From: a virus
Length of the DNA: 37,430 nucleotides
Strand: one strand, 5' to 3'
IMG/VR virus record: IMGVR_UViG_3300008261_000062
Location: 1 to 37,430 of that record
Part shown: positions 6,860-36,792 of the stretch, piece by piece
How the letters are laid out: each line of letters begins with the position of its first letter
Position numbering within the stretch: the stretch's first letter is position 1
The notes under the pieces: model-generated
Database searches by the model: none
Told to the model about the DNA's origin: nothing
Seen by the model: the letters and a program-made list of their open reading frames with translations, nothing else
Position numbers and translations under genes: made by a program

Positions 6860-6930
6860 AATGCTTCACAGATCTCCACAGACTACATTCAATGGTGAAT
6901 GATAAGGTGGGGACAAAACAGGAGAGTATA

Positions 6931-7602
6931 ATGATCAAGAATGGTATTGTTGGTTTGGTAGCAGCCGTGATGTGTGGCGCAGTCGCAAAGGCAGAGTTCG
7001 TGGTTGTGAACAACCCAGTAGCAGATACTGTTGGTTTCTACTCTGATGCATATAAGTCAAGTGGCTCATACGCTTATGCACAAAGTGGAGCGCAAGGTTT
7101 TGATCTTGAGGATTCATACACAACTTCTTCATTGAAGTGGTGGGGTTCATCCAACGGATTCAATGGTCAAGGTATTGGAAACATTACTGGATTCCAAGTT
7201 ATTGTGTGGAGTTCAGACTTTAGTTCGCCAGTTAGTTCAACCAATATCAACATCAGCAACATTTCTGTTGTTGATACAGGCGAATTCAACTTCTTTGGTC
7301 AACCAGTTTATGAATTCTATGTGCCATTTGTGACTCAACTTGCTGCTGGTTCATATTACATGAATATTGGTGCTTACCTCAATGACTCTGCTGGCGATCA
7401 GTTCGTGTGGTCGCAGGGTGAGAATGTTGAAGACTTCTGGTTCACCGATGAAAACGGGCAGTATAATTGGGGTGATTGGCGACCGCTTCCAACTACCCTC
7501 ATCGGCAACACAGCGGGTGGAGCATTTGTTCTCTCTGCTCCGACACCAGGAGCGATTGCTCTCCTTGGCATGGCTGGTCTGATCGGTCGCCGCCGTCGAT
7601 AA
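6931..7602 (+). CDS. exported PEP-CTERM-like protein 1
   Basis: A 223-residue protein. The first 22 residues form a signal peptide (MIKNGIVGLVAAVMCGAVAKA). The body is rich in Ser, Gly, Tyr and Asn with beta-type alternation and no recognised catalytic motif. It ends in PTPGAIALLGMAGLIGRRRR: a PxP start, a short hydrophobic span and an arginine cluster. This is a PEP-CTERM sorting tail, the substrate of exosortase. The start at 6931 follows AGGAGAG; the frame extends upstream to 6892 but lacks a signal peptide there. It has its own promoter and terminator. The phage would depend on a host exosortase. Role unknown; surface display in infected cells is inference. Confidence 0.85.
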   Translation: MIKNGIVGLVAAVMCGAVAKAEFVVVNNPVADTVGFYSDAYKSSGSYAYAQSGAQGFDLEDSYTTSSLKWWGSSNGFNGQGIGNITGFQVIVWSSDFSSPVSSTNINISNISVVDTGEFNFFGQPVYEFYVPFVTQLAAGSYYMNIGAYLNDSAGDQFVWSQGENVEDFWFTDENGQYNWGDWRPLPTTLIGNTAGGAFVLSAPTPGAIALLGMAGLIGRRRR

Positions 7603-7805: not shown

Positions 7806-9581
7806 ATGAGAAATCTTTTGGCTCTATTTTTATCTTTTGTAATGACAAATACAGCATATGCTCAATATGATGCAAAAGAACTTGCTCGACTTCTAAATTC
7901 TTGGGGAACACCGAATACAACATATGATCTAGACGGAAATGGAACAGTTGGTCCCGAAGATATTGCAATTTTTCTCGGTCAAGATAATTATGCTGAAATA
8001 GGCGCAGGATTTACAGAGCCAACTCCCGAACCACCCGCCATCGGTATACCATCAGATTGGGCATTTGACGCAAAGGCAATAGCCCGTTGGACAACAGTTC
8101 CACGCAGCGAATACACAGGTCCATTTTCAGTTGGTGTTGTGGCATTTCATGTAAATGGAATCAACCGAGTTGACTTTTCTGTTAACGGTGGAGCATGGAA
8201 ATCTGTTTATGAACCAAAGTTGAATCCCGACAACAATGTCGAGGAGTATTTCGTCAAGATCGACCCACTTGATCACGCAGATGGAGTTATAGAAATCCGT
8301 GCGATTGCCTACCCAAACATCGGCATTCCGAGAGTTCTACAGGGAAACCTGACGAACAACGGACCAACCTATCCAAATCAGCAGCAGTATCTTCAGGGCA
8401 ATCACGGAATGCTTGTGGTTCTCAACGGATACGGCACACTTCCATATTTTGCAGTATACATTTCGCCAAACGGAAACGACACTACGGGTGACGGTAGCCA
8501 AGCAAATCCATTCAACAGTATGGGTCGTGCGCTTAAGCACTTCAAGACAAACTATGGCAAGGCAGATGGTGGCACTATCTACCTCATGGAAGGCGTGAAT
8601 CTTATATCTGTAGGTGCGTATAGCAACCACGGATGTCAGACATTTGAGAGATACCTGACTTTCCGTCCTGCACCTGGCTTGACAAGAGAGCAAGTCAAAC
8701 TCAACGGCAACCCTGCGGGTGGATTGAGAGTCAACTTCATCAAGGTGGAGGATGTGACTTTCTATACCGATCCTGCAAGACCAAATACTCAATTTAGAAA
8801 CGGAGCAAACTCTTCATCGTATTTCTGGGCAAACCGCTGCCATGCGATCTATGAGGCTTACAATCCCGATGGAACATGGGCAGATCCAGCAAACGGTGGT
8901 GGATTCGCACTTGGTAACGGAACAAGTGGTTCATTCACCGCTGTCCATGTGACCAACTGCTCGTCTTTCAATACCCGTGGAAATGTAAGATCGAATCAAA
9001 TGGTCATCAACTACAGATGCGACAGACCTGGCGATACACCATTCAGCGGAGCATTCCTCACGATCAATGCAGAGGCATATAATCCCATAAGAATCGGGAG
9101 CGATCACCTTGACGGGTGGCATTGGTTCGGCACAGAAGGTTCTCCAATCCGCAGGGAGAACCACATCATGCACAACATCTTCATGCGTAACTTCTGGGGT
9201 CAGGGAATGATGTATGAATACTTCTCGCCTGGAACCGAGCGTTTCGATGATGTTGCACTCGTAAACATCGACATAGAGCAGAATGTGGCTACCTCTGCGG
9301 GTGGATGGTGGGAGATGGATACGAACCACCTACTCATCAAGAATGTCACCCAATCAGATCAGAACTTGCGTTTCAAGCGTCCAGATCAGTTCACTGCCAA
9401 TCCAAGACTTCAACTCAAGAATGTCCTGATAGAGAACTATTGCGGCAGTCTTTCAGATTTTGGTGACACACAGCCTGTCGCTGGATCACCCAAATATCTC
9501 ATAGAACCAAATGTCAGAGTAGTAAACTGGACTAGTCCCTGCCCAGGCGAATGCAGAGACATACCTTGGCCTTGTAACTAA
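7806..9581 (+). CDS. secreted dockerin-like / right-handed beta-helix protein
   Basis: A 591-residue protein with signal peptide MRNLLALFLSFVMTNTAYA. Residues 23-60 form a dockerin-like repeat: LLNSWGTP, then DLDGNGTVGPEDIAIFLG, with the Ca-binding D-x-D-x-N-x-T order. Next comes a beta-sandwich-like part shared with the following gene (KAIARWTTVP, GVVAFHVNGINRVDFSVNGG). The rest begins YISPNGNDTTGDGSQANPF, the usual entry to pectate-lyase-type beta-helices. CGGGAGAAAAA precedes the ATG. GGGTGA/TCACCC (7767-7784) forms a leader hairpin. A likely role is binding or cutting a polysaccharide outside the cytoplasm. Catalytic residues are not identifiable. Confidence 0.85.
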   Translation: MRNLLALFLSFVMTNTAYAQYDAKELARLLNSWGTPNTTYDLDGNGTVGPEDIAIFLGQDNYAEIGAGFTEPTPEPPAIGIPSDWAFDAKAIARWTTVPRSEYTGPFSVGVVAFHVNGINRVDFSVNGGAWKSVYEPKLNPDNNVEEYFVKIDPLDHADGVIEIRAIAYPNIGIPRVLQGNLTNNGPTYPNQQQYLQGNHGMLVVLNGYGTLPYFAVYISPNGNDTTGDGSQANPFNSMGRALKHFKTNYGKADGGTIYLMEGVNLISVGAYSNHGCQTFERYLTFRPAPGLTREQVKLNGNPAGGLRVNFIKVEDVTFYTDPARPNTQFRNGANSSSYFWANRCHAIYEAYNPDGTWADPANGGGFALGNGTSGSFTAVHVTNCSSFNTRGNVRSNQMVINYRCDRPGDTPFSGAFLTINAEAYNPIRIGSDHLDGWHWFGTEGSPIRRENHIMHNIFMRNFWGQGMMYEYFSPGTERFDDVALVNIDIEQNVATSAGGWWEMDTNHLLIKNVTQSDQNLRFKRPDQFTANPRLQLKNVLIENYCGSLSDFGDTQPVAGSPKYLIEPNVRVVNWTSPCPGECRDIPWPCN

Positions 9582-9593
9582 AAAGGAGAAACG

Positions 9594-11354
9594 ATGAGAC
9601 TAATTTCAATAATAGCAGCACTCTTCTTTACTATGGTTGTTCACGCACAGAACCTTGTCTCAGGAACCGATCCCAACTTCACGATCAGCAGCGTGAAGCA
9701 GCAAGGGGATGAGTCCGACTACGGATACAGCAACATGGTGATTGCCCGTTGGGTGACACCGCAGTATCAGACGATCAACAAGCCCACCAAGGTCGGTCTT
9801 CTTGCATATCATTTCAGCGACATCAACCATGTTCAGTTCTATCTGAACGGTGGTCCTGTCACCAAAGTCTTCAACAAGTCTTGGAATGAGGGAATCTTCG
9901 GATACTGGATTGAGATTCCTCCTATTCCCGATTCACAATACAACCGTATTGTTGCGGTGGCTGTTCCTAATAGCGGAACTCCCCTAGTTCTACAGGGAGA
10001 TCCAAGATACAATCCAAACTTCCTGCCAAGTGGAACAGATGCCTATGGCAATCAGTTTGCACCGACAAGAATCAACGGGATTGAGAGCCTTCAGTTTGCA
10101 TCGGACTTCAGCGGAACCCTTCGCAAGGTCAATGTCTATGTTGACTCTGTGAATGGAAACAACAGCAACTCTGGTCTTGCTCCAAATCAGGCAAAGAAGA
10201 CCGTATTCGATGCAGTTCTTGCAGCAAGAGACTCAAACAATAATGTTGACGGCGCAATCGTCAACTTCATGTCAGGAGACTACATTTTCGGTGATGCCTA
10301 TTATGTCGGGAGCGTCTATCCAAGAAACTTCTACAGACCTGTAGTGTTCCAGCCATATGGAGATTCTGTTGTGAGAATCAAGGAGGGGGTTGGAACAGGC
10401 AAACTAACCCTAAACTCATACCACATCAAGAACATGAGCATATCACCAACTGCTCCAAATCTAACAAACGCAGGATTTGCTTATCTTCAAGTTGCGAGTG
10501 GTTCCGCTCCCGTGACATATCTTGGATCAACTCCACCAACAGACCCTGAGTATGGCTTTGCTGGAAAAATGCCATATTGCCTTGTTGAAGATTGCTTCAT
10601 GGACAATCTGGTGGAAACGAACACATCTTTCCTGTATTTCGTCGGATACAACGGTAGTTCTTCATATAGATCAAGAGTTGACTACATCGGATGTCATATG
10701 CAGAACTCTTGGAATGGATATACAAACGGACATCTTGTAAAGAACTGCTCGTCATACAACATTCACTCCGATATGTTCAGGGGTGGCGTATGCGTGGCAG
10801 GATTGAGATTCGAGCGTTTTGGAAAGTATGTCTCTACTGATGCACATCCAGATCTATTGCAGTGGTATCAGTCGCCTGGAAACACCATAATCTACAATGT
10901 CAAGTGCGACGATTCGATCATAGCAGAGACTTGTCCATCACAGGGAATATTCAACAATCCCTATGGTGGCGGGGTCGTGCTGAACACCGCAATCGACAGA
11001 CTTCAGTGGCAAGGTGTGTATGTTCGTCAGTTGAGCATTGGCTCTTCGCACAACATTCTCATTCGTAACAGCAATATAGGTGGCTCATGGACGGATGGTT
11101 GTAAAGTGATTCCACAGTTTGATACAGGAGAGAACTTCCTTATGCAAAGAACCACCAGAAATACTTTCAATACTTTGACAGGAATAATCTCGACTTTTGG
11201 CTCACCAGTCTATAGCCATCATGTAAGTGCATGGAATGCAGCAGGATCGCCAAGACGCGGAATATGGAATTACAATGGAACAAGATATGATTTTTCATAT
11301 CAAGATTTGTCTGAAATGATTGATGTAGAACCTCAAACAATATCACAAGACTGA
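9594..11354 (+). CDS. secreted beta-helix protein, paralogue of the upstream gene
   Basis: A 586-residue protein with signal peptide MRLISIIAALFFTMVVHA. It lacks the dockerin repeat but shares the next domain with its neighbour: MVIARWVTPQ matches KAIARWTTVP, and LLAYHFSDINHVQFYLNGG matches VVAFHVNGINRVDFSVNGG. Both continue with VLQG and a beta-helix entry (VYVDSVNGNNSNSGLAPNQ). AAAAGGAGAAACG precedes the start, 12 bases after the upstream stop, so the two are cotranscribed. A tandem duplication followed by divergence is the simplest reading. A role in acting on host surface glycans is inference. Confidence 0.84.
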   Translation: MRLISIIAALFFTMVVHAQNLVSGTDPNFTISSVKQQGDESDYGYSNMVIARWVTPQYQTINKPTKVGLLAYHFSDINHVQFYLNGGPVTKVFNKSWNEGIFGYWIEIPPIPDSQYNRIVAVAVPNSGTPLVLQGDPRYNPNFLPSGTDAYGNQFAPTRINGIESLQFASDFSGTLRKVNVYVDSVNGNNSNSGLAPNQAKKTVFDAVLAARDSNNNVDGAIVNFMSGDYIFGDAYYVGSVYPRNFYRPVVFQPYGDSVVRIKEGVGTGKLTLNSYHIKNMSISPTAPNLTNAGFAYLQVASGSAPVTYLGSTPPTDPEYGFAGKMPYCLVEDCFMDNLVETNTSFLYFVGYNGSSSYRSRVDYIGCHMQNSWNGYTNGHLVKNCSSYNIHSDMFRGGVCVAGLRFERFGKYVSTDAHPDLLQWYQSPGNTIIYNVKCDDSIIAETCPSQGIFNNPYGGGVVLNTAIDRLQWQGVYVRQLSIGSSHNILIRNSNIGGSWTDGCKVIPQFDTGENFLMQRTTRNTFNTLTGIISTFGSPVYSHHVSAWNAAGSPRRGIWNYNGTRYDFSYQDLSEMIDVEPQTISQD

Positions 11355-12984: not shown

Positions 12985-13359
12985 TTAGCGTCTTACAATT
13001 CCTTGACGCTTTCTCATTGAACGAGCGCGTTTTGCATTTGCTCTTGAACGCTTTGCCTTTGCTTTACGAGCAGAACGCTTCGCGATTCTTGACTTCTGTG
13101 CCTTCTCCTTGCCACTCATCTTCATGCAGCGTCTAGCAGCACCCTTGGTGACAAGTTTCATTCCTTTACCACAGACAAATTTAATCTTCTTCTTTCCACC
13201 ACGAACAACAATTGTTCTCTTTGCTCCCTCTGCAAGAGCCTGAAGAGCATACTCTGGAATCATCTGAAGAATTTCATCGGGAGTGTAGTCCGAAAGATCT
13301 CCTTCAAGGATATACGATAGATCTTGTAGGGTTGATTCAGCGAGGTTGACCTTTAGCAT
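12985..13359 (-). CDS. very basic protein, histone/protamine-like tail
   Basis: A 124-residue protein in two parts. The first 45 residues are acidic and helical (YILEGDLSDYTPDEILQMI). The rest is strongly basic: GGKKKIKFVCGKGMKL, then Lys/Arg/Ala repeats (KRSARKAKAKRSRANAKRAR) to the end. ILEG near residue 18 resembles an LxE-type protease site between the two parts, which would release the basic part. It overlaps the upstream gene by 23 bases. A DNA-binding internal head protein is the likeliest reading, by inference from charge and neighbours. Confidence 0.72.
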   Translation of the reverse strand: MLKVNLAESTLQDLSYILEGDLSDYTPDEILQMIPEYALQALAEGAKRTIVVRGGKKKIKFVCGKGMKLVTKGAARRCMKMSGKEKAQKSRIAKRSARKAKAKRSRANAKRARSMRKRQGIVRR

Positions 13360-13966
13360 TTTTCTTCCTTTTCTTGTTTACTAGAACAGGTTCTCCATCT
13401 GAAACCATAGCAAGACCAGGAGCAGAAGCGGTATTTGCCACCTCTTCTTGAGCCACAGATCTCTTCACAGCACTGAAGACAGCCTGATCGCCTGTAATGC
13501 GGTCAAGAAGATTCATGAGAAGAGTCATTACAATAGTCTTGTATTCTAGTGGATTGACTTTGTTTGGATTTTTGATTACACGAAGAGTCTTTGAAAGAAC
13601 GGAGCGATCAATAAGACCAGCCTTGGCGAGTTGAGTGAATTTTGCGTATTCATCTACCGACTCTTCCATGTCTTCTTTATCGCCCTTGACATAAGCAGAA
13701 ACTATCATGTTATAGACGCGAGGATCATCAACAACATTATCAATAAGATCCTGAAGTATGTTCATTACAAGTTGGCGAAGTTCCATGTTGGAAGTCTCGC
13801 TAAACTTTTCTGGATTCTTGAATACACGACGAGCCTTTGCTAGATTTTCAGGAGAAACCAATCCAAGACGGAGCAAGCGATCAAACTTTCTCTTCGGAGT
13901 TATAGCGGCTTCAGCAATCGCCTGACGGTAGGCAGACTCTTCTAGAATGCTCTTGAAATCTTTCAT
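13337..13966 (-). CDS. two-repeat protein with capsid-targeting-like N-terminus
   Basis: A 209-residue protein. Its start (MKDFKSILEE, then AIAEAA at about 16-21) resembles the T4 internal-protein targeting peptide MKTYQEFIAE. Two related helical repeats of about 75 residues follow. KFDRLLRLGLVSPENLAKAR...FKNPEKF matches KFTQLAKAGLIDRSVLSKTL...IKNPNKV, and both continue with LVMNILQDLID / IVMTLLMNLLD. The tail is basic (NKKRKKNAKGQPR). GAGGA precedes the ATG, which overlaps the upstream stop (ATGA). A packaged head protein is plausible; function unknown. Confidence 0.75.
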   Translation of the reverse strand: MKDFKSILEESAYRQAIAEAAITPKRKFDRLLRLGLVSPENLAKARRVFKNPEKFSETSNMELRQLVMNILQDLIDNVVDDPRVYNMIVSAYVKGDKEDMEESVDEYAKFTQLAKAGLIDRSVLSKTLRVIKNPNKVNPLEYKTIVMTLLMNLLDRITGDQAVFSAVKRSVAQEEVANTASAPGLAMVSDGEPVLVNKKRKKNAKGQPR

Positions 13967-19471: not shown

Positions 19472-19999
19472 TTAGTTACCTCCACCTACAATGAATGGTC
19501 TGTTCTTGAGACGAGACTTGAAATCTCCCTTTTCAATTTCAGGTCCAGACTTCAGTCCTGCGCCACCGATACGCGCTCTCTTGCCCTTTGGAACCCAATC
19601 AGACTTGCCTGTGCCGTGGAACACGCTACCGTGCTTCTTGGAGACAGAGAGAACGGTGTCTTGTCCATGCTCTGAACCGTGCTTCTTGAGATCGGCAAGC
19701 ATCTTTGCATGATCAGATGAATGAACCATGAAAGACTTTTCCTTTACTTTCTTCTGACCGCCAGCCTGTGTCTCAATATACTCACCCTTCACAGGAACAG
19801 GAGCATAGCCGTGCGCTCGTAGACTGGCGCGTAGAGCCTTCGTGCGCTTGTTGTTCTCGGCAGGGCTTAATTCGCCACGGCTAGCCGATACGAAGCCAAC
19901 CATCTTGCCACCTTCAATATGACCGTGAAGGCGGGATAGCGACCTACGGGCTGCTTCTATGAGTGCTGCTTCTTCTCTGATCTGCTTAAAGTCTTTCAT
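19472..19999 (-). CDS. DUF3293-like protein with capsid-targeting-like N-terminus
   Basis: A 175-residue protein. It starts MKDFKQIREEAALIEAARR, close to the other targeting-like peptides in this window. The body contains GFVSASRGELSPAENNKRTK, LRASLRAHGYAPVPVKGEY, an ExSF strand (EKSFMVHS) and HGQDTVLSV. This order resembles DUF3293 proteins. The ATG at 19999 has GGAGA 8 bases upstream; an ATG at 20011 sits inside the leader. The function of the domain is unknown. The peptide suggests packaging into the head. Confidence 0.72.
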   Translation of the reverse strand: MKDFKQIREEAALIEAARRSLSRLHGHIEGGKMVGFVSASRGELSPAENNKRTKALRASLRAHGYAPVPVKGEYIETQAGGQKKVKEKSFMVHSSDHAKMLADLKKHGSEHGQDTVLSVSKKHGSVFHGTGKSDWVPKGKRARIGGAGLKSGPEIEKGDFKSRLKNRPFIVGGGN

Positions 20000-20017
20000 G
20001 CGATTCTCCATTTATCT

Positions 20018-20584: not shown

Positions 20585-20794
20585 TCACAAAAGCCCATTT
20601 TCCTCATCGAAACGAGCAATCCTGTCCATCGCACAATTACTTAGTTCTTTTTGAGTCTCTTTGAGTTTCTTCTGAAGTTGCATAATCTCCCCATAAGCAT
20701 CACCGATCAAAAGAAGAACATCTTTGGGAAGATCCGTTCGCTTGGTGGCAACGCGAAGGCGGTAGTCGATATGGTCTTCGTCATCCTGCCACAT
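20585..20794 (-). CDS. small coiled-coil protein
   Basis: A 69-residue charged protein with a heptad-like stretch (GEIMQLQKKLKETQKELSN). The start ATG shares one base with the stop of the PEP-CTERM gene (TAATG). It ends 4 bases before tRNA-Gln. No family recognised. Confidence 0.65.
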   Translation of the reverse strand: MWQDDEDHIDYRLRVATKRTDLPKDVLLLIGDAYGEIMQLQKKLKETQKELSNCAMDRIARFDEENGLL

Positions 20795-21429
20795 TACTTA
20801 CGCCTTCTTTGCCTTCCGACCACGCCAGCAACCGCAAGCAGGGCAAGTGCCGATGGTGTGGGAACAACCTCGTAAGACAGATTGTCCACGATGACATGTG
20901 GAACATTGGCAAAGCCACTAATCTTCAGTGTGTCAATGGCGAGATCGTCAATCTCAACCCGTGTCCGCACCATTGCTTGGAGGGTGACGGTGTGAGTCCA
21001 GTTGACTAAACCGTCCTGATATCCCGTCAGCGTCAGGGTCATTGGAGTCCAAGCTGTGGTGATGTCAGCCCCAACGAATCGCCACGGATTCTCCCGACTG
21101 ATTCTGAATGCATTCTGCGCCCCCGCACCGTATGGGGTGAAAAGCGCACGATCACCGACGATGCCATCGTCGTAACCACCGAAATTCACACCATCGTTGA
21201 TGGCATAGTAGCCCCAGTATCCACTAAAGTTCTGCCATGTCTCGTCGTTTGCAGGAACGACAAGGTTGCTCACGAACTGAAATCCCTCGTAATTCCTGAT
21301 GGGACTTGCTCTCACGGTGTCGTTTAAATCGGAGATTGCGTCTGGTTCAGGCAAATCCTCAAAGGTGCAAGTCTGCACCTGTGCGTGTGCTGCCGTTGCG
21401 ATAAATGCTGTTGCGATTAGTGTCTTCAT
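20794..21429 (-). CDS. exported PEP-CTERM-like protein 2
   Basis: A 211-residue protein. Signal peptide MKTLIATAFIATAAHA; a beta-rich middle containing CTFEDLPEPDAIS and NFSGYWGYYAIND; and a C-terminal VPTPSALALLAVAGVVGRQRRRK sorting tail (PxP, hydrophobic span, basic cluster). FEDLP near the start recurs in planctomycete and other PEP-CTERM proteins. It is more GC-rich than its neighbours, consistent with host acquisition. The start overlaps the upstream stop (ATGA), so it is embedded in a phage operon. Confidence 0.85.
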   Translation of the reverse strand: MKTLIATAFIATAAHAQVQTCTFEDLPEPDAISDLNDTVRASPIRNYEGFQFVSNLVVPANDETWQNFSGYWGYYAINDGVNFGGYDDGIVGDRALFTPYGAGAQNAFRISRENPWRFVGADITTAWTPMTLTLTGYQDGLVNWTHTVTLQAMVRTRVEIDDLAIDTLKISGFANVPHVIVDNLSYEVVPTPSALALLAVAGVVGRQRRRK

Positions 21430-21755
21430 TGTGTGTTTTCCTCTTCGTTTGGCATGTTGTAATAACTTCGGTAGGGTTCGTGTGGAATGTTGTTTCGCTT
21501 GAGTGTTTCCTCAAGGTGCAAGATGTGCCACGACATACGCAGCACGAAGTCCCGTGTCTCTTCTTTTATCCACTTGTTCTTGATGTGCCATGCCGAATCC
21601 AAGATGGCATCCTGAATGCGTGGAGAGCAGTTTCGCTGATCGTGGCGTTCATAGATCATCTTGTCGATGATCTCAGGCTGACCAAATCCATTTAGGATCT
21701 TGAAGTATTCATCAAGGAATGGATCGTTGGTTACATTGTCGTTTTCGTTGCTCAC
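21426..21755 (-). CDS. hypothetical protein in GTGA-coupled operon
   Basis: A 109-residue helical, charged protein (DEYFKILNGFGQPEIIDKMI). It starts with GTG at 21755, overlapping the upstream TGA. The ending NEEENTQ overlaps the PEP-CTERM start. No family recognised. Confidence 0.68.
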   Translation of the reverse strand: MSNENDNVTNDPFLDEYFKILNGFGQPEIIDKMIYERHDQRNCSPRIQDAILDSAWHIKNKWIKEETRDFVLRMSWHILHLEETLKRNNIPHEPYRSYYNMPNEEENTQ

Positions 21756-22123
21756 TCGTCATCCTCTCCAAGTTCAAACTTCGGTGGGACTGCCTTGCCC
21801 TTGGAAACGACAACGCCGTTCACACGAAAGCAATATGGTTCCTTGTAGCAATCCCAGCCATAATGATCTGCAATCTGCTTCGGAGTCAATCGCACATAGC
21901 AGTCATCGTCGGGGTTGGTCATGTCGGTGGTTTCGCAGATTCTCCTACGAGCCTCATCCCGTTCCTTCGTGACACGCTCAAAATCATCCCACAACTCATG
22001 GTGTTCCTTGTGGAGATTCGTAAAGCACTCCTGATACTCCTCAAGTTGCATTTGAAGTGCGTGTCGCTCGTCGCAGCACTTCTCGTAGTGACCTTCAATA
22101 GTTGGTTCGTAGTTCTTGCTCAC
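21752..22123 (-). CDS. coiled-coil protein, paralogue of 22341-22616
   Basis: A 123-residue protein with a long coiled coil (HALQMQLEEYQECFTNLHKE), then TKERDEARRRICE and LTPKQIADHYGWDCYKE. The last two blocks match ERDEARRKFCE and TTPQWFAEEENWDCFKE in the gene at 22341, so the two are homologues. The GTG start at 22123 overlaps the upstream TGA, with GGAGG just before. Confidence 0.72.
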   Translation of the reverse strand: MSKNYEPTIEGHYEKCCDERHALQMQLEEYQECFTNLHKEHHELWDDFERVTKERDEARRRICETTDMTNPDDDCYVRLTPKQIADHYGWDCYKEPYCFRVNGVVVSKGKAVPPKFELGEDDE

Positions 22124-22344
22124 TTGCCGTCCTCCTCGTTAGGTGGCAGCACATCCATCACGACGAGATCATCAAGGTCAGTCCAAAAACAGGTGTCTGC
22201 GAGTTCGTTGCGGAACTTCCCCACCTTGCCGTTTGGGGAGATTTCAAGCAGCGTCCATTCGTTGCGTTGGATTCTTGTGATCCTGTCAGTCAGCAGTAGC
22301 CGCTTGCCTTTGAGTTTTTCCCATTCGCGCTCTTCGTCGCTCAC
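22120..22344 (-). CDS. small protein in GTGA-coupled operon
   Basis: A 74-residue protein from GTG at 22344, MSDEEREWEKLKGKRLLLTD, then beta-type segments (EWTLLEISPNGKVGKF, FWTDLDDLVVMDVLP). It looks like a small SH3-like barrel, unnamed. The start overlaps the previous stop (GTGA) with GGAGG 9 bases upstream. Confidence 0.7.
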   Translation of the reverse strand: MSDEEREWEKLKGKRLLLTDRITRIQRNEWTLLEISPNGKVGKFRNELADTCFWTDLDDLVVMDVLPPNEEDGK

Positions 22345-22616
22345 TTGCCGTCCTCCTTGAAGCAGTCCCAATTCTCTTCTTCAGCAAACCATTGAGGAGT
22401 AGTGAATTCCAAGCGAGAGTTATTCGACATCATTTCGCAAAACTTTCGCCGCGCTTCGTCGCGCTCGGCGCGCAGTTTCTTGTTCATTTCGCCAACAGGC
22501 TCACAAGCCATGCAGGAACCTTCGAATCCGTTTTTGAGGTCTTCGATATGAAGACGAAGAGCCTCGTTTTCTAGGATCAATTGCTGATTTCGCATTAGGA
22601 TGTCTTCATTTTCCAT
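22341..22616 (-). CDS. coiled-coil protein directly after a tRNA
   Basis: A 91-residue protein starting MENEDILMRNQQLILENEAL with a leucine-zipper-like helix, then Cys-x2-Cys (SCMACEPVG) and the ERDEARRKFCE block shared with the gene at 21752. The ATG at 22616 lies two bases after the 3' end of the tRNA at 22619-22691, and no ribosome site is visible. An ATG at 22595 is possible. Confidence 0.65.
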   Translation of the reverse strand: MENEDILMRNQQLILENEALRLHIEDLKNGFEGSCMACEPVGEMNKKLRAERDEARRKFCEMMSNNSRLEFTTPQWFAEEENWDCFKEDGK

Positions 22617-22618
22617 AA

Positions 22619-22691
22619 TAGCGCGAATCGGATTCGAACCGATACTTGGCGCATTTTGAATGCGCTGTCTCTGCCGTTGGACTACCGCGCC
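22619..22691 (-). tRNA. tRNA with anticodon CAA (Leu codon) but class I shape
   Basis: Acceptor GGCGCGG/TCGCGCT (G1-U72), anticodon stem GCGCA/TGCGC with loop TTCAAAA (anticodon CAA), variable loop CAAGT of only five bases, T-arm ATCGG-TTCGAAT-CCGAT, A73. CAA reads the leucine codon UUG, but leucine tRNAs normally have a long variable arm, so the identity is uncertain. Confidence 0.75.
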
Positions 22692-22697
22692 GACAAG

Positions 22698-22770
22698 TGG
22701 CTCCCGTGGGAGTCGAACCCACAACTGACGGATTAAAAGTCCGATACTCTACCAATTGAGTTAGAGAGCC
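22698..22770 (-). tRNA. tRNA-Lys(TTT)
   Basis: Acceptor GGCTCTC/GGGAGCC, D-arm ACTC-AATTGGTA-GAGT, anticodon loop CTTTTAA (TTT), T-arm GTGGG-TTCGACT-CCCAC, A73. It begins 5 bases after the RNase P-like RNA and 6 bases before the next tRNA. Confidence 0.94.
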
Positions 22771-22775
22771 ATTAA

Positions 22776-23022
22776 CTGAAGAGGAAGCCCCTCTGATGTT
22801 TGCTGAGTAGCATCACCCATATCGTGCTTGATATAAGTGACTTGTGTTCCTTCTGTGTCGGTGTGATAGAGGGAAGCCCCCTTCACTACAGAGTGATCAC
22901 AAACAGCAGAGGGACTTTCCTCCACGCTCCGCATCCGCAGAGCATTTGCTTGCTTACGGAGCAAGCCTTACCGCCACCTTAAATCATCCAAAAGCCGATG
23001 GAATCTTTTGGACTACTCTCAG
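22776..23022 (-). ncRNA. rnpB: candidate compact RNase P RNA
   Basis: The minus strand carries GAGGAAAGTCC (22922-22912), the RNase P CR-I sequence. AAGTCCCTCTG pairs over 11 bp with CAGAGGGGCTT (22795-22785), giving a P4-like helix that ends in the expected GGCTT. TGTTTG/CAAACA continues as P5. TGTGAT/ATCACA encloses two hairpins like P7-P8-P9. TCACTTATATC/GATATGGGTGA forms a further long hairpin. GCTCTGC-GGAT-GCGGAGC just upstream fits P3. CTGAGAG (23022-23016) can pair with CTCTTCAG (22783-22776) to close the molecule. tRNA-Lys follows after 5 bases. The specificity-domain consensus is not evident, and GAGGAA can also pair with TTCCTC, so a different structured RNA is possible. Confidence 0.58.
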
Positions 23023-23125
23023 ATAGACCGCTCAGAGTGCGGTTTATATAATATAACTGACAATATACTACATTGCATTCACCTACGAGTTAAATACTAT
23101 TCATTTTACACCTCGTTTGTTTCAA

Positions 23126-23395
23126 TTAACCATTAAGAATCTGGAAACTTGCATTGAACGAACTCACCGATTCAGGACGGAACGAGCGAAAAGCACCAGC
23201 CTCGACATCCCAAACAACAATGTTGTCGCCTGTTCGCGGTGGAGCATTCTCATTCAAAACCTGTTCACGCTTCGGCAAGTAAGTCTCATTCAGAGTGCAG
23301 CGCATCTTTCGCTGCGAACCATCCATCTTCGTAAAAACAACTTCACAAATTCCACGGTGAAGGTTCTCAACCATCTGTTCTCGCGTTTGAGTCAT
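23126..23395 (-). CDS. small SH3-barrel-type phage protein
   Basis: An 89-residue protein from the ATG at 23395 (AGGAGA upstream). VVFTKMDGSQRKMRCTL is followed by VVWDVEAGAFRSFRPESVSS. This arrangement, K-x-D-G-x-x-R-x-M-x-C-T-L then W-D-x-E...R-S-F-R, is common in a family of small beta-barrel phage proteins of unknown role. It has its own sigma70 promoter and lies upstream of the RNase P-like RNA. Confidence 0.75.
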   Translation of the reverse strand: MTQTREQMVENLHRGICEVVFTKMDGSQRKMRCTLNETYLPKREQVLNENAPPRTGDNIVVWDVEAGAFRSFRPESVSSFNASFQILNG

Positions 23396-23414
23396 TTGTT
23401 TCTCCTGTGTGTAG

Positions 23415-23443
23415 AGTATAGCGTTTATTGTCTGCGTTGTCAA
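23415..23443 (-). promoter_or_regulatory. sigma70-type promoter
   Basis: TTGACA (23443-23438), 17-base spacer, TATACT (23420-23415) on the minus strand. Leader of about 13 bases including AGGAGA before the ATG at 23395. Confidence 0.88.
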
Positions 23444-23448
23444 GTAGG

Positions 23449-23742
23449 TCAATCGTCTTTTTCTTTGACGCGATAACCAATCTTCCACAAGACATCTGCA
23501 ATCGTGCTAGCAGTCTCTAATACTGCCTCTTCTGCCAACTCGGGACGAACCGCATGAATCGTTTCGTGTATGAGTGTATCAAGAAGGTCTTTGTTTTTTG
23601 CGTTTCTGTTTACCCAAATTTCTGGATTTGAAACAGACGGATCGTCACACTCGCCCCATGAATTTCGGGACATTCGTGAAGAGTTTACGAGACGGACTCG
23701 CCACTCTTTACGGTTGATCTTCGTTCGTATCTGTTTCTCTTT
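23449..23742 (-). CDS. small HExxH metalloprotease-like protein
   Basis: About 97 residues; the start is uncertain (GTG at 23742 assumed, frame open to 23775). EIWVNRNAKNKDLLDTLIHE continues into the HETIH zinc-type motif, followed by a helix (EEAVLETASTIADVLW) and GYRVKEKDD. This short layout resembles SprT-like mini-proteases, but a third zinc ligand is not obvious. It overlaps the 3' end of the BPSL0761-like gene in a different frame, suggesting coupling. Confidence 0.65.
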   Translation of the reverse strand, partial: KEKQIRTKINRKEWRVRLVNSSRMSRNSWGECDDPSVSNPEIWVNRNAKNKDLLDTLIHETIHAVRPELAEEAVLETASTIADVLWKIGYRVKEKDD

Positions 23743-23920
23743 CACTTGGAACCTCGTCAAGCACAAAGATTTCACAGGGGAATGGATAATGTTTAAGGCA
23801 ACGAGATGCTGCCTTTCTTACTGCACTTGGAACTCGCGGAGTTTCCTTTGGATTTAAGAGAGTAAAAAGAAATTCGCGAGTGTTGAGTAGAGCGTTGATC
23901 TGTTCTTGCCTAGTGGACAT
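23708..23920 (-). CDS. BPSL0761-family-like protein
   Basis: A 70-residue protein from the ATG at 23920. STRQEQINALLNTREFLFTL is followed by NPKETPRVPSAVRKAASRCL and KHYPFPCEI. The order R-x-x-A-L-x-x-T-R-E-F-L...P...V-P...A-x-x-x-L-x-H-Y-P matches what I know of the BPSL0761 family, a small helical protein of unknown function in bacteria and prophages. Acidic tail. Confidence 0.72.
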   Translation of the reverse strand: MSTRQEQINALLNTREFLFTLLNPKETPRVPSAVRKAASRCLKHYPFPCEIFVLDEVPSERETDTNEDQP

Positions 23921-23921
23921 T

Positions 23922-24167
23922 TTACTTCCAATCTGGATAAACAAGCACACCGTTTCCACTAGTATCTAGAACTTCTACAGCGGCAACTCGCGGAATCTTT
24001 TCAATATCCGCAGCAATTTGCTGCGGAGTTTGGTAGTAATGACACTTCTTGATTTCAGATTCAATATCTGAATTATTGATGCTGTCGAGAGAATCTTCTG
24101 TGCGCCACACACGAACTGTGAAACGCTCAGTATTTCCCTTTGTCATTGATTCCAACTGTCTATTCAT
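23922..24167 (-). CDS. hypothetical protein after tRNA-Thr
   Basis: An 81-residue alpha/beta protein (RFTVRVWRTEDSLDSI, TPQQIAADIEKIPRVAAVEV). It starts at the ATG at 24167 with TTGGAGGTTGT, 10 bases after the tRNA-Thr 3' end, so tRNA and mRNA share a transcript. No family recognised. Confidence 0.68.
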   Translation of the reverse strand: MNRQLESMTKGNTERFTVRVWRTEDSLDSINNSDIESEIKKCHYYQTPQQIAADIEKIPRVAAVEVLDTSGNGVLVYPDWK

Positions 24168-24177
24168 ACAACCTCCA

Positions 24178-24249
24178 AGCCACCTGTGAGATTTGAACTC
24201 ACGACCCTCGCATTACAAATACGATGCACTGCCGCTGTGCTAAGGTGGC
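24178..24249 (-). tRNA. tRNA-Thr(TGT)
   Basis: Acceptor GCCACCT/AGGTGGC, D-arm GCAC/GTGC, anticodon stem CGTAT/ATACG with loop TTGTA and flanking T/A, anticodon TGT. T-arm GTGAG-TTCAAAT-CTCAC. U73. No CCA. Confidence 0.93.
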
Positions 24250-24256
24250 GAAACTT

Positions 24257-24679
24257 TTAGTCGATGTGCTTTTCAACCTTATCCCAATAGCCTTCAGTCT
24301 TGTCGGACTTGAAGCCGTTTGGTCCACCATTGTGAATCCTAGCCATGTCTTCATAGGTAGGCGTGGAACCAATCCGTCGAGCCGTAGCGTAGCGATTCAG
24401 ATACGCCACGACAACACGCTCTGCGTAAGCACGGTTCATGCAGTCCTTGTAAGATCCTCCAATCGAAGGATCAAACTCAACTGCATCTTCCCAATAGCAC
24501 TTGTGAATTTGGTATGGACCAATTGCCTTTCCACGATCTCCGATGAGATTCTTGCCATCAGAGGATTCAACCATACGGATTGCGTCGAGAAGCGGACGAA
24601 TCTCTGTTGCGGTGATCCGCTGCTTCTGTGCAGGAGGCGTGAGGGTGAGAACCGTTGAGATGAGAATAGTGGTGAACAT
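24257..24679 (-). CDS. exported i-type (destabilase-like) lysozyme, endolysin candidate
   Basis: A 140-residue protein from the ATG at 24679 with a signal peptide (MFTTILISTVLTLTPPAQ). RMVESSDGKNLIGDRGKAIG is followed by PYQIHKCYWEDA, then AERVVVAYLNRYA and EDMARIHNGGPNGFKSDKT. The GPYQI...W...Y...ARIHNGGPNG order is that of destabilase/i-type lysozymes, with catalytic Glu in VESSDG. It would cut peptidoglycan after Sec export. The ORF opens at 24691, but the promoter -10 (24692-24687) covers those codons, so the mRNA seems nearly leaderless. Placed between tRNA-Tyr and tRNA-Thr. Confidence 0.8.
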   Translation of the reverse strand: MFTTILISTVLTLTPPAQKQRITATEIRPLLDAIRMVESSDGKNLIGDRGKAIGPYQIHKCYWEDAVEFDPSIGGSYKDCMNRAYAERVVVAYLNRYATARRIGSTPTYEDMARIHNGGPNGFKSDKTEGYWDKVEKHID

Positions 24680-24686
24680 GTTGATC

Positions 24687-24715
24687 ATCATACACTATAT
24701 CGAACACTCTGTCAA
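24687..24715 (-). promoter_or_regulatory. sigma70-type promoter, nearly leaderless
   Basis: TTGACA (24715-24710), 17-base spacer, TATGAT (24692-24687). The ATG at 24679 begins 8 bases after the -10. Confidence 0.82.
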
Positions 24716-28355: not shown

Positions 28356-29915
28356 TTACTTGGTCTTCAGTTGTCCAGTTCTCTTGAGATAGTTATAGTG
28401 AGGACGCTTTTCTCTTGCTGCTGCTACAGGGTCTTCTGGTGTGCGGAAGGTTCCCTTTCTCATATTAGCATCGTATTCACGCATCTTTGCTTGAGATTCG
28501 CGTTTCTTCGCAATCTGTTCAGGAGACATCTTTGGCTTATTACCTTGCAAGCGATTTGCCATTGCAGGAACAACACCTGTGCCAGTATCTCTTGCAACTC
28601 CTCTATCGACATTCAGATTGCGGAATGATGCGATGGCTTTGCTGCGCTGATTCGCAAGGTTTCCTGCCTTCTTGGTGTATTTGCCGCTCTTGCCGATGAG
28701 ACTTCCACCACCCTTGACTGCCTCGGCAGATGCTCCACCCTTCATTGCCATTCTTGCGGCAACCTTGGCTTCTTGTTCTGCTGCTGCTCTTGCGAGTTTT
28801 GGATTCTTTGTCTTATATGCTGCACCCTTGAGGCGCATCAACTTCTTGTAACCAGCCTCGTCCAACTGCAACGATTCAGGAACAAGACCCTTTGCCTTCA
28901 TAGCAGAGTGCTTGAGTTTTGCTCTTCCAAGAACTGCTGGTGATGCTCCACCGAACTTCGTTCTGTCTCTATATAACTTCTTCTTAATTGAACGCTGCAT
29001 GAAGTCTGCAACTTTTCCTGTTATAGGCTTTCCTGAAACAAGGTGCTTGCGAATGATTCGCATACGCTTTGCGCTTACGCCTTCACCCAATTGTCCTTCA
29101 GCATCCTTCTTGTTCTGCATCCAGAACTCTGCTTCCTTCTTGTCACCCTTCTTCACTGCCTTGACGATCTCGCGCTTCGATCCCTTGATTGCTTTCTTGA
29201 GTTGACCTTTTGAGTGAACATAGGAGCCTTCAGCCAAAGCATCGGTTTCTGGATCGTATGAATCATATTGTGGACGAATTCCCTTTGCCTGTAGTTCACG
29301 ATGCTTTGCAAGTTCCTTCTCATTGAACTTGCCTATTGCCTTGTCAACGGCAGGAGATGTCTTTGTGTCCTTGTTGAAGAACTTTACAACTGTTCTCTTT
29401 GGTGCGCCACCCTTGCGAAGTTTACGGGCGACTCTACGACCCAACTCTGAATCATAGGCAGTATCTAATTTCTTAACAGTTTCTGGATTGTTGAAATTCT
29501 TTGCACTCATCTTTGCACGAAGGAGACGAGCCTTGCGCTTTGCACCCTCCTGCAATACGGCAACAAGACTGTCGAGATCTTCTTTTGTTACCATAGTCTT
29601 CGGCTTGATCTTCTTCATACCCATTGCCATGTGCTTACGGGCAACAGCCTTTGCAGCAAAATTGGCAATAGCAGAGCCTCTGCGCTCAAAGGCTCTCTTT
29701 CCTGCGGCAACCTTTGTTGCCTTTGCCTCTTTAGGGGTAGCACCGCCACGAAGAGCCTGACGAGTCTTCAATGAGGTTGCTCCGCTCTGAACAGCAGCAA
29801 CTCCAGAGAGTGATTTTTCTTTTTGATAATTTCCAGCCTTAGCCGCCTTTGCAGCCGCAGCCTGTAGTCTCATGGTTCTTGCCTGTCCGCGTGAACCTTC
29901 GTTGATATTGCTCAT
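28356..29915 (-). CDS. very basic 519-residue protein, candidate cleaved internal head protein
   Basis: Starts MSNINEGSRGQARTMRLQ, then Ala/Lys/Arg-rich stretches through most of its length, with almost no hydrophobic core. Sites of the T4 prohead-protease type ([LI]xE) recur: INE-GSRG (6), LQE-GAKRK (about 124), LAE-GSYVH, LGE-GVSAKR, LDE-AGYKK. Several cuts would give peptides of tens of residues to about 100 residues. EGSRGQARTMRL matches EGSRSPARTARL in the gene at 35270. AGGAGAT and a late promoter box precede it. A DNA-condensing or scaffold-core precursor is likely; this is inference. Confidence 0.75.
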   Translation of the reverse strand: MSNINEGSRGQARTMRLQAAAAKAAKAGNYQKEKSLSGVAAVQSGATSLKTRQALRGGATPKEAKATKVAAGKRAFERRGSAIANFAAKAVARKHMAMGMKKIKPKTMVTKEDLDSLVAVLQEGAKRKARLLRAKMSAKNFNNPETVKKLDTAYDSELGRRVARKLRKGGAPKRTVVKFFNKDTKTSPAVDKAIGKFNEKELAKHRELQAKGIRPQYDSYDPETDALAEGSYVHSKGQLKKAIKGSKREIVKAVKKGDKKEAEFWMQNKKDAEGQLGEGVSAKRMRIIRKHLVSGKPITGKVADFMQRSIKKKLYRDRTKFGGASPAVLGRAKLKHSAMKAKGLVPESLQLDEAGYKKLMRLKGAAYKTKNPKLARAAAEQEAKVAARMAMKGGASAEAVKGGGSLIGKSGKYTKKAGNLANQRSKAIASFRNLNVDRGVARDTGTGVVPAMANRLQGNKPKMSPEQIAKKRESQAKMREYDANMRKGTFRTPEDPVAAAREKRPHYNYLKRTGQLKTK

Positions 29916-29933: not shown

Positions 29934-29941
29934 TATTTATG
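29934..29941 (-). promoter_or_regulatory. T4-like late promoter box
   Basis: CATAAATA on the minus strand, 18 bases before the ATG of the 519-residue basic protein. Confidence 0.62.
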
Positions 29942-34239: not shown

Positions 34240-34779
34240 TTATCGACGCGCCCAACGCTCGGCAGTCTTTAGATCGCCAAGGTTTACATAGGAGCGGTTT
34301 TGGCTGTAGTCTGCGTTTGGTTCAATATCAATACCAACTACATCAACCTTTTTTCCCCAATACGGCAAGAGATCGGCAACGGCTCTCTTAAGATAAGGTA
34401 TTGATGATGAAGAGAGGTAGACTTTATTTTCGCTTGTTGCGGGTGAATTCACAATACGAACCCAACCCTTTTCATTTACAACACGCTCAAGCGGATAGAA
34501 TACATCGGCTACACCGCTTTTGATATTATCAAAGTATTTGCCAATCATACTCTCATCGGTAAAACCTGTCTCTTGCATGATGAGATCATTCACCTTACGC
34601 TTTGTAACACCAAACTTTGTAAGATTCGTTACTACAACCTGAATGTGGTAGCGGTTAGGATGAGAGACTGGTATGTAGAGCGATTTTGCAGGATTGAACC
34701 AACCTTTCGCCCATCCGAAAAACGGTCCCTCGTTTGCCTCGCCAATTCGTTCTGTAATGAATGCGAGAAAATTTTTCAT
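34240..34779 (-). CDS. late protein with capsid-targeting-like N-terminus
   Basis: A 179-residue protein. It starts MKNFLAFITERIGEANEGPF, close to T4 MKTYQEFIAE, with candidate cuts after ITE or IGE. The body (YIPVSHPNRYHIQVVVTNL, KYFDNIKSGVADVFYPLERV, YLSSSSIPYLKRAVADLLPY) is a mixed fold I do not recognise. The start overlaps the upstream stop (ATGA). Probably an internal head protein, inferred from the N-terminus and neighbours. Confidence 0.72.
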   Translation of the reverse strand: MKNFLAFITERIGEANEGPFFGWAKGWFNPAKSLYIPVSHPNRYHIQVVVTNLTKFGVTKRKVNDLIMQETGFTDESMIGKYFDNIKSGVADVFYPLERVVNEKGWVRIVNSPATSENKVYLSSSSIPYLKRAVADLLPYWGKKVDVVGIDIEPNADYSQNRSYVNLGDLKTAERWARR

Positions 34780-35269: not shown

Positions 35270-36187
35270 TTATGGTTTCGCCATGTGCTGCACAGCCCAC
35301 TTCTGCGTTGGACCAGTCACCTTCCACTTTGCCGAAGCCGCATCAGCGTAACGCTTCAGTTTCTTCTGAGTTCCGCGCGGTGCGCCGCCTGAACCAATGC
35401 CTTTTGCCGCCTTTGCAGCAGCAGCCTTTGCAGCACTAGCCTCGCGATACTTAAGAACCGCCTTTGGCACACGCGCTCCCTTGCGATAGGGAACCTCTCC
35501 CGCCTTGACCTCGCGACCCGCAACATCAACATCGTGCGGTAGACTCTTTACAGCCCAAGTTCTGCCGCCGTGAAGCCCTGCCTGAACTGATTCAGGTGGC
35601 AATCGTCGTGGATCAAGACCAGCCTTCATGCGCTCTCGGCGCAACTCGACAAACTGTCGATCCTGAACGCTTCGCGATGCGCCTGGTTTGCGGCTCAGGC
35701 TCAACCTAGCGGTTCGCGCCGGGCTTCGTGAGCCTTCTTTTACAGTCTGTCTAGTTACAGGAGGCTTCACAGGAGGAAACTGCTTCCACGGTTTTGTAAA
35801 AGGATTCACAATTGGCTTTGGCTTTTCGGTAGGCTTTACCGCTCTAGCCGCTGCACCAAGACGGCGCAGAGCCGCATGGTAGCGACCTTTTGCAGCCGAT
35901 GTGCTTTCGCCTACAACACCCGCTCCGTAGAGGCGACCTGTTCGACCCGCACGACTTGCTGCGCGTGAACGCATACCAATCTCGCGGTAGTAACGGCTAC
36001 GAGCCTGTGAACTGAGTGAATTCAGACGAGCCTGTAGTTTTCCGCTTCCGCTGAACGATCCACGAAACTCATAGGGATCAACGCCTGGCGGAAGTTTTGG
36101 CTTTGCTCTACCGCTACGACCACGATTAGGATCGCCAGCAGAGACGGCTTCGTCAACCAATTCTAAAATTCTCGCATGAATATTCAT
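35270..36187 (-). CDS. very basic protein with targeting-like N-terminus
   Basis: A 305-residue protein. MNIHARILELVDEAVSAGDP is followed by RGRSGRAKPKLPPGVDPYEF and long Arg/Ala-rich segments. QTVKEGSRSPARTARLSLSR, near residue 147, repeats the EGSRxxARTxRL block found at the start of the 519-residue protein, with a VKE-G cleavage-like junction. GGAGG precedes the ATG. GC-rich. A DNA-binding, cleaved internal head protein is the likely role, by inference. Confidence 0.73.
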   Translation of the reverse strand: MNIHARILELVDEAVSAGDPNRGRSGRAKPKLPPGVDPYEFRGSFSGSGKLQARLNSLSSQARSRYYREIGMRSRAASRAGRTGRLYGAGVVGESTSAAKGRYHAALRRLGAAARAVKPTEKPKPIVNPFTKPWKQFPPVKPPVTRQTVKEGSRSPARTARLSLSRKPGASRSVQDRQFVELRRERMKAGLDPRRLPPESVQAGLHGGRTWAVKSLPHDVDVAGREVKAGEVPYRKGARVPKAVLKYREASAAKAAAAKAAKGIGSGGAPRGTQKKLKRYADAASAKWKVTGPTQKWAVQHMAKP

Positions 36188-36206: not shown

Positions 36207-36214
36207 TATTTAGT
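36207..36214 (-). promoter_or_regulatory. variant late promoter box
   Basis: ACTAAATA followed by AA on the minus strand, 19 bases before the ATG at 36187 and touching the stop of the upstream gene. Confidence 0.4.
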
Positions 36215-36792
36215 TAAACACCAACCCAGCGACCATCGCGCTGTATCACGAAAGACCAGCCGTCCTTTCGCATAGGATCTTCGGTATAGGGATAGCGATC
36301 TACCCATTCTGCAATACGCACCACCGTTGGTCTGCTCACAGTAGTAATCACACCGTGCATCCGCTGTGAGCCAACCCTCATCAACTGCGTAGGCATCTGC
36401 GGTCGCCAGACACCACTCTTCCAAGGCTCGACCACTAGATCACGCAAACGCAAACGCACACCAGCCTCAATCTTAGGCAGACTACCCTGATCCGCTTCGC
36501 GCTTTACAGAGCCGATTGTTCCCCACACGCGCCAACCCTCAACCGTCTCAATCATTACTGAATATCCCCAATAGAAAGCCCCAGGTCCACGCACCCAATT
36601 CAATTTATTTAATTTGAATGTAGAACTAACGACCTTGCCATCAATATCATAAGAGAGCCACGCTGATATCGGCTTAGGACCAAACGGAGATCTAGGCGGT
36701 TTAGCCCACAGACCTCGTATAGGACCATACCAGCCTTCACCTGGTCCAGCCGAGGCTTCTAGAACAGAGCGTATTGATTCATTTATATTCAT
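36214..36792 (-). CDS. late protein with targeting-like N-terminus
   Basis: A 192-residue protein. MNINESIRSVLEASAGPGEG gives a candidate cut after VLE. The body is Trp/Gly-rich and beta-like (GWYGPIRGLWAKPPRSPFGP, KLNKLNWVRGPGAFYWGYSV, RKDGWSFVIQRDGRWVGV). No ribosome site is obvious before the ATG. No family recognised. First gene of the 36792-34240 run of targeting-like proteins. Confidence 0.7.
   Translation of the reverse strand: MNINESIRSVLEASAGPGEGWYGPIRGLWAKPPRSPFGPKPISAWLSYDIDGKVVSSTFKLNKLNWVRGPGAFYWGYSVMIETVEGWRVWGTIGSVKREADQGSLPKIEAGVRLRLRDLVVEPWKSGVWRPQMPTQLMRVGSQRMHGVITTVSRPTVVRIAEWVDRYPYTEDPMRKDGWSFVIQRDGRWVGV

Follow-up and report, generated by a model that had tools for sequence, protein, structure and literature searches.

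What does the strongly basic protein encoded at 28356-29915 do for the phage that carries it? The surrounding virus record, 37,430 bases long, was analysed over its whole length and is referred to here as the window. Its content is T4-type: a class II ribonucleotide reductase and UvdE were recognised by Pfam/PHROG matches, and ORFs resembling UvsX, DnaB, primase and ThyX were named by reading their translations. A first-pass annotation had described a 519-residue chain rich in Lys, Arg and Ala and had proposed that it is a precursor, cut in the head at repeated LxE sites into DNA-binding peptides. The chain is as described, except that the ORF (28356-29915, hereafter W) is encoded by the minus strand; across this interval the plus strand is broken by stops.

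A basic protein with five head-protease-type sites

W contains 15.6% K, 8.1% R and 14.8% A and no Cys, with a computed pI of 10.6 and a net charge of +77. It had no match in Pfam, PHROG, NCBIfam or PADLOC, and tblastn returned zero matches among 50,697 phage records. The AlphaFold model is mostly helical and poor (mean pLDDT 59.9, pTM 0.21); PDB sequence matches of residues 199-244 to designed repeat proteins (best E 4e-4) were set aside as low-complexity helix. Upstream of the start codon stands CATAAATA (29934-29941, minus), which resembles the T4 late-promoter consensus. The ATAAATA motif has nine copies in the window; five of them precede an ORF start on their own strand by no more than 40 bp, and 2.7% of window strand positions fall in that zone.

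All five junctions named in the first-pass annotation are present (arrows mark predicted cuts): INE↓G after residue 6, LQE↓G after 123, LAE↓G after 229, LGE↓G after 278 and LDE↓A after 353. In 10,000 composition-preserving shuffles the mean number of such sites was 0.73 (P = 0.0008); a further site, VPE↓S at 347, fits a looser motif only. The sites divide W into a 6-aa leader, MSNINE (29898-29915), and five modules, all on the minus strand: s1 (29547-29897; residues 7-123, 117 aa, pI 11.2, ending LQE↓G), s2 (29229-29546; residues 124-229, 106 aa, with an RGGA core, ending LAE↓G), s3 or GSYVHSK (29082-29228; residues 230-278, 49 aa, ending LGE↓G), s4 or GVSAKRM (28857-29081; residues 279-353, 75 aa, ending LDE↓A) and s5 or AGYKKLM (28359-28856; residues 354-519, 166 aa, again with an RGGA core). 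The predicted products, s1 to s5, have masses of about 12.2, 12.0, 5.5, 8.3 and 18.0 kDa, pI values of 9.8-11.2 and net charges of +6 to +27. A weak RGGA core is common to s1, s2, s5 and ATRSKYLK-type modules of other proteins (hhalign scores up to 28, with 17.9 for s1/s2, against ~8-14 for column-shuffled comparisons). A single fold for all modules is unsupported, s3, s4 and the DPNRGR and GSLG modules being without this core by hhalign.

The block EGSRxxARTxRL was said to occur in W and in the protein at 35270, each time directly after such a junction. Both occurrences were found, as EGSRGQARTMRL in W and as EGSRSPARTARL from residue 151 onward in the second protein (35270-36187, minus, 305 aa; hereafter V); the preceding site is INE in W, as claimed, but VKE in V, which is not strictly [LI]xE. 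V is itself polyprotein-like and basic, with a 13-aa leader, MNIHARILELVDE, followed by a DPNRGR module, VKE and the EGSRSPARTARL module.

Junctions are conserved and coincide with the ends of homology

Whole-protein searches of IMG/VR gave W relatives at six loci, and searches with module and C-terminal alignments gave 5, 7 and 7 loci, many of them on contigs already found; for a conserved RuvC-like family of neighbouring genes, 80 of 423 loci were kept. In a list that we chose among the W relatives, 21 of 21 homologous places of the five junctions (2, 4, 3, 6 and 6 per junction) keep [LIMV]xE↓[GA], and one further homologue reads VSE↓AGYK. Conservation of the junctions was the check that the first-pass annotation had set for its own reading, and the junctions proved to be conserved: the pattern of L/I-x-E and a small residue after the cut is found at five sites in W, with counterparts at all of these homologous places.

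Because the segment comparison cut proteins at junctions beforehand, the end points of its segments are not independent evidence. Unsegmented BLAST is independent, and with it we scored points at which homology stopped while both proteins continued, counting those within 4 aa of [LIMVF]xE. Among 21 proteins hand-picked as W relatives (196 HSPs), homology started at LxE in 37 of 76 cases and ended there in 35 of 84, where circular shifts of the sites led to an expectation of 11.3 and 12.4; neither starts nor ends reached the observed value in any of 2000 shifts, a count that is no true probability, as related sequences are not independent. In the same 21 relatives, LxD, LxK, LxR, LxQ and LxS were not above chance at boundaries, and [not LIMVF]xE gave 29/76 starts (vs 22.3) and 28/84 ends (vs 25.3). 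The sites might, on another reading, be a meaningless by-product of a helical composition rich in Lys, Ala and Glu, and LxE is indeed short, with some 0.7-1.6 sites expected in W by chance; given the shuffle P value, the 21 conserved junctions, the 2000 shifts without a match and the other LxX motifs at chance level, we hold this to be very improbable, and the shuffles and shift controls led us to reject it.

The residue after the cut is less constrained than the W junctions indicate. In 87 basic ORFs, LxE↓[AGS] was found at 44/220 starts (vs 18.4) and 32/229 ends (vs 19.3), and LxE with another next residue was enriched as well, at 52/220 starts (vs 20.2) and 30/229 ends (vs 20.8); P1' must thus be looser than stated above. 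Over 728 non-redundant ORFs the enrichment was weak (39/716 vs 23.7; 34/773 vs 23.4); this set was thinned by similarity from 1369 and left out L002, L040-L044, L090 and L114, which repeat contigs already included. A strict A/G/S rule across phages was likewise dismissed by isolates. Modules of the [SN]KxTLxxYxxKA type are present in four copies in gp064 of Caulobacter phage Cr30, and also in gp159 of Prochlorococcus phage P-TIM68, in SWZG_00082 of Synechococcus phage S-SKS1 and in W relatives. The recurring module follows LxE↓I, V or L in Cr30, P-TIM68 and S-SKS1. After removal of duplicates, of matches starting past model position 6 and of matches with an extrapolated start in the first 4 residues, 12 copies were left, and all 12 are preceded by [LIM]xE plus one intervening residue, as are 4.6% of random positions.

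Modules are shuffled as units

On related contigs, W modules are found again in further ORFs, next to different neighbours. The 49-aa s3 module has four occurrences in three architectural contexts, bounded every time by xE↓: LAE↓...LGE↓GVSAKRM in W, LDE↓...LKE↓ATRSKYLK in the relative G001, and a tandem pair, LDE↓...MSE↓SIAE↓...MSE↓SITE↓GLLRR, in the relative G004. In G001 the ORF with the s2-s3 pair is followed by one with s4-s5, the two pairs being fused in W. At two loci, L075 and L052, the s4/s5 junction is the exact position of one whole additional module. On either side of it stands a copy of ESDQLDE or EAEQLDE, and the DNA of the two copies agrees at 20/21 and 21/21 bases; this near-identity suggests that the linker may serve as a recombination anchor. 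W is polyprotein-like in that distinct modules, with protease sites between them, evolve as units. At L082:9560-11224 (minus), two GGQKKLDLNKNKRLDSQDFAMLRAKKK modules stand in tandem; their DNA is nearly the same, this being a recent cargo-module duplication.

Protease, targeting leaders and head genes in a relative

T4 gp21 cleaves L/I-X-E, and internal proteins have targeting propeptides of 10-19 aa, according to the accessible part of PMC9026906. By eye, no protease gene was recognised among the ORFs of the 37-kb window fragment. Peptidase_S77, the gp21-type protease, was found in one of six relatives (G004; 130.9 bits, cut-off 27), to which this search was confined; the other five, which may be fragments, showed none. 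In G004 this gene adjoins gp22- and gp23-like ORFs (named by reading), and the capsid protein has LRE↓A close to its N-terminus.

A 20-aa capsid-targeting sequence (CTS) probe had no tblastn match in phages, and T4's own ip genes were therefore read instead; ipII and ipIII start MKTYQEFIAE↓A. Cargo ORFs of G004 and G001 start MKTYEQFIAE↓A, MKTYREFIVE↓A, MKSFNRFIAE↓A and MKSFNQFISE↓S, the first and last of these occurring in G004. The gene cluster in which W homologues are found also has CTS-tagged ORFs and encodes a cytidyltransferase-like enzyme. One G004 ORF of 719 aa (L005:6420-8579) combines an IEE↓A leader, a cytidyltransferase-like part (phrog_395) and VKE↓G, followed by two stretches that look by eye like acetyltransferases and have no database match; it is possibly an enzyme-bearing cargo polyprotein.

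Across the 143 ORFs examined in G004 (156,618 bases), [LIMVF]xE↓[AGS] occurred 38 times in the internal-protein cluster (26-41 kb, 19 ORFs) against 15.4 expected, and 16 times in four head genes against 7.8; the remaining 120 ORFs showed no enrichment (123 vs 127.9). In other T4-like contigs (65 of the 80 loci after thinning), 83 basic ORFs had 245 sites against 114.6, and 264 other ORFs had 318 against 292.3. The motif therefore tracks cargo and head genes and not the whole genome.

These counts bear on whether W is cut at all. An uncleaved multidomain protein, in which LxE is merely the linker where recombination swaps domains, would account for the near-identical DNA of the module-flanking linkers, since recombination alone could give the boundary pattern, and cleavage of W is itself our deduction. 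We nonetheless consider it unlikely: the linker motif is the known specificity of gp21, it is enriched in the cargo and head genes of G004 and not in its other 120 ORFs, and in single-module cargo of the same phages it stands directly after T4-type leaders.

We judge a role for W in the prohead core (scaffold), as for T4 gp22, gp67 and gp68, to be similarly improbable; W would then be cut at many LxE sites, its fragments would exit the head and its modules would be disposable. Each of the T4 core proteins is cleaved at several points, and most of the resulting fragments are lost from the head (PMC9026906, in the text available), so that several gp21 sites per chain are a shared trait, and the gp22-like ORF of G004 has 7 sites where 2.83 are expected. 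That ORF, however, is acidic and a separate gene beside the protease and capsid genes, whereas W is strongly basic, lies elsewhere, has a modular architecture that is not conserved, and has homologues in the company of the CTS-tagged ORFs and the cytidyltransferase-like enzyme.

Other candidate cargo in the window

A predicted SAM-lyase-family protein (19472-20011, minus; PF23780, E 1.5e-15) is CTS-tagged, with a leader ending LIE↓AARRSLSRL, and is a probable companion internal protein. Related loci are G004 10668-11213 (L028), whose leader is MKSYREFVTE↓A, L139:502-1017, L140:469-1098 and L141:511-1116; in the relatives from G004, P-TIM68, Campylobacter phage CP220 and Alishewanella phage Slicko01, too, [LIFV]xE directly precedes the conserved mature start, which suggests an anti-restriction enzyme that would be packaged in the head and then ejected. 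Blocking of type IV restriction is a known function of T4 internal proteins (PMC3012670; PMC12373910, both in part). Three further ORFs, all minus, are possible internal proteins by their leaders only: 36214-36792 (MNINE↓SIRSVLE↓A), 34240-34779 (T4-CTS-like MKNFLAFITE) and 13337-13966 (MKDFKSILEESAYRQAIAE↓A).

A series of small unannotated minus-strand ORFs follows the SAM-lyase gene (20794-24700). One ORF at 24257-24691 (minus) has a destabilase-type (i-type lysozyme) domain (PF05497, E 5.6e-14) and a signal-peptide-like start. The ORFs at 6892-7602 (plus), 20794-21429 (minus) and 7806-9581 (plus) encode proteins that look secreted, with PEP-CTERM-like tails (PTPGAIALLGMAGLIGRRRR) and a stretch resembling dockerin; the NCBIfam match for such proteins was below cut-off (NF038120, E 0.0024), and the search of genome contigs gave no relative of the protein at 6892. 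Tails and dockerin-like stretches of this kind are features of Planctomycetes; any such host would be a guess.

Discussion

The modular architecture of W and the conservation of its junctions are real. With the LxE of head-maturation enzymes standing between its blocks, W is probably cut in the head into small DNA-associated cargo proteins, and we favour, with reasonable though not high confidence, a cargo polyprotein that would yield five basic pieces on cutting in the prohead, for which cleavage, packaging and ejection are what we infer. The parts of this reading differ in strength: cleavage at LxE is likely, whereas location in the head and ejection are plausible. The precursor proposed in the first-pass annotation thus gains support from the conserved junctions and the homology boundaries at LxE, and also from the gp21-type protease of G004, the T4-type leaders and the LxE-rich head proteins; the cleavage, head packaging and DNA binding that it entails stay at the level of prediction. 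DNA binding of the pieces is predicted from their charge and because lysines of T4 internal proteins contact DNA (PMC3012670, accessible part).

In a T4-like phage, W would presumably be made late and would then enter the prohead core, where a gp21-type prohead protease could cut it after L/I-x-E into the 6-aa leader and five basic pieces of ~49 to 166 aa. The pieces may stay with the packaged DNA, would probably be ejected along with it, and might neutralise its charge, counter host defences, or both. The modules would be evolutionary cassettes, gained, lost, duplicated and moved among precursors at protease sites.

The T4 internal proteins IPI, IPII, IPIII and Alt are capsid-targeted, processed by gp21 and ejected, and each has a gene and a targeting leader to itself. 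W and its surroundings are like them in the L/I-x-E sites, the basic composition, the CTS-tagged neighbours and the gp21-type protease of a W relative; they differ in that each of the T4 proteins is a single mature protein behind a single leader, whereas W has five modules, internal sites and a very short leader. A targeting sequence of 10-19 residues was not found in W, its 6-aa MSNINE being unlike MKTYQEFIAE, and an upstream extension could add at most 7 codons (519 aa within a 526-codon open frame); leaders of suitable length are those of V and of the SAM-lyase ORF in the window. As W lacks this defining feature, we describe it as working like the T4 internal proteins and do not class it with them. 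The leader is the weak point of the best reading: the start of W looks unlike the T4 targeting sequence and does not account for entry into the prohead.

Other systems share some traits with W. The T4 core proteins gp22, gp67 and gp68 differ from it in forming an assembly core, with most fragments leaving the head (PMC9026906, text available); an acidic gp22-like scaffold gene between the protease and capsid genes is not what W is, being basic and situated elsewhere. Phages phiKZ and SPN3US, of another phage group, have a diverged gp21-like protease and several cuts per chain, as in SPN3US gp53, but in their head and inner-body proteins it is a long propeptide that is broken down by these cuts, a single mature protein being left, and the accessible part of the source reports no shuffled modules in their head proteins (PMC10052503). 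Polyvalent proteins, known from phages and conjugative elements, also carry several injected domains per chain and have been compared to polyproteins; their release is done by embedded peptidase domains (PMC5512222, in part), whereas the sites of W fit a separate prohead protease, and no effector or embedded peptidase domain was recognised in W with Pfam, PHROG, NCBIfam or PADLOC. In the open-access literature, to the extent of its accessible text, we found no description of T4-like phages whose cargo polyproteins are shuffled and bounded by LxE. On the best reading, what is new relative to the internal-protein theme of T4 is that several cargo modules share one precursor and are swapped at protease sites.

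Whether this extends to a general cassette system appears to us evenly balanced: T4-like phages (uncultured, Caulobacter and cyanophages) may carry cargo polyproteins of several modules, with prohead-protease sites as the module borders and recombination at near-identical linkers as the means of module exchange. A single precursor would then bring into the head a variable set of proteins that condense DNA or counter defences. The prohead protease appears to act as a polyprotein processor, the protease site being at the same time the border of exchangeable cargo modules. Splitting at LxE is a simple rule by which many unannotated cargo proteins of T4-like phages may be found and dissected, including those of isolates that can be tested by mass spectrometry, and the predicted SAM-lyase-family cargo points to ejected anti-restriction functions beyond the enteric T-even phages.
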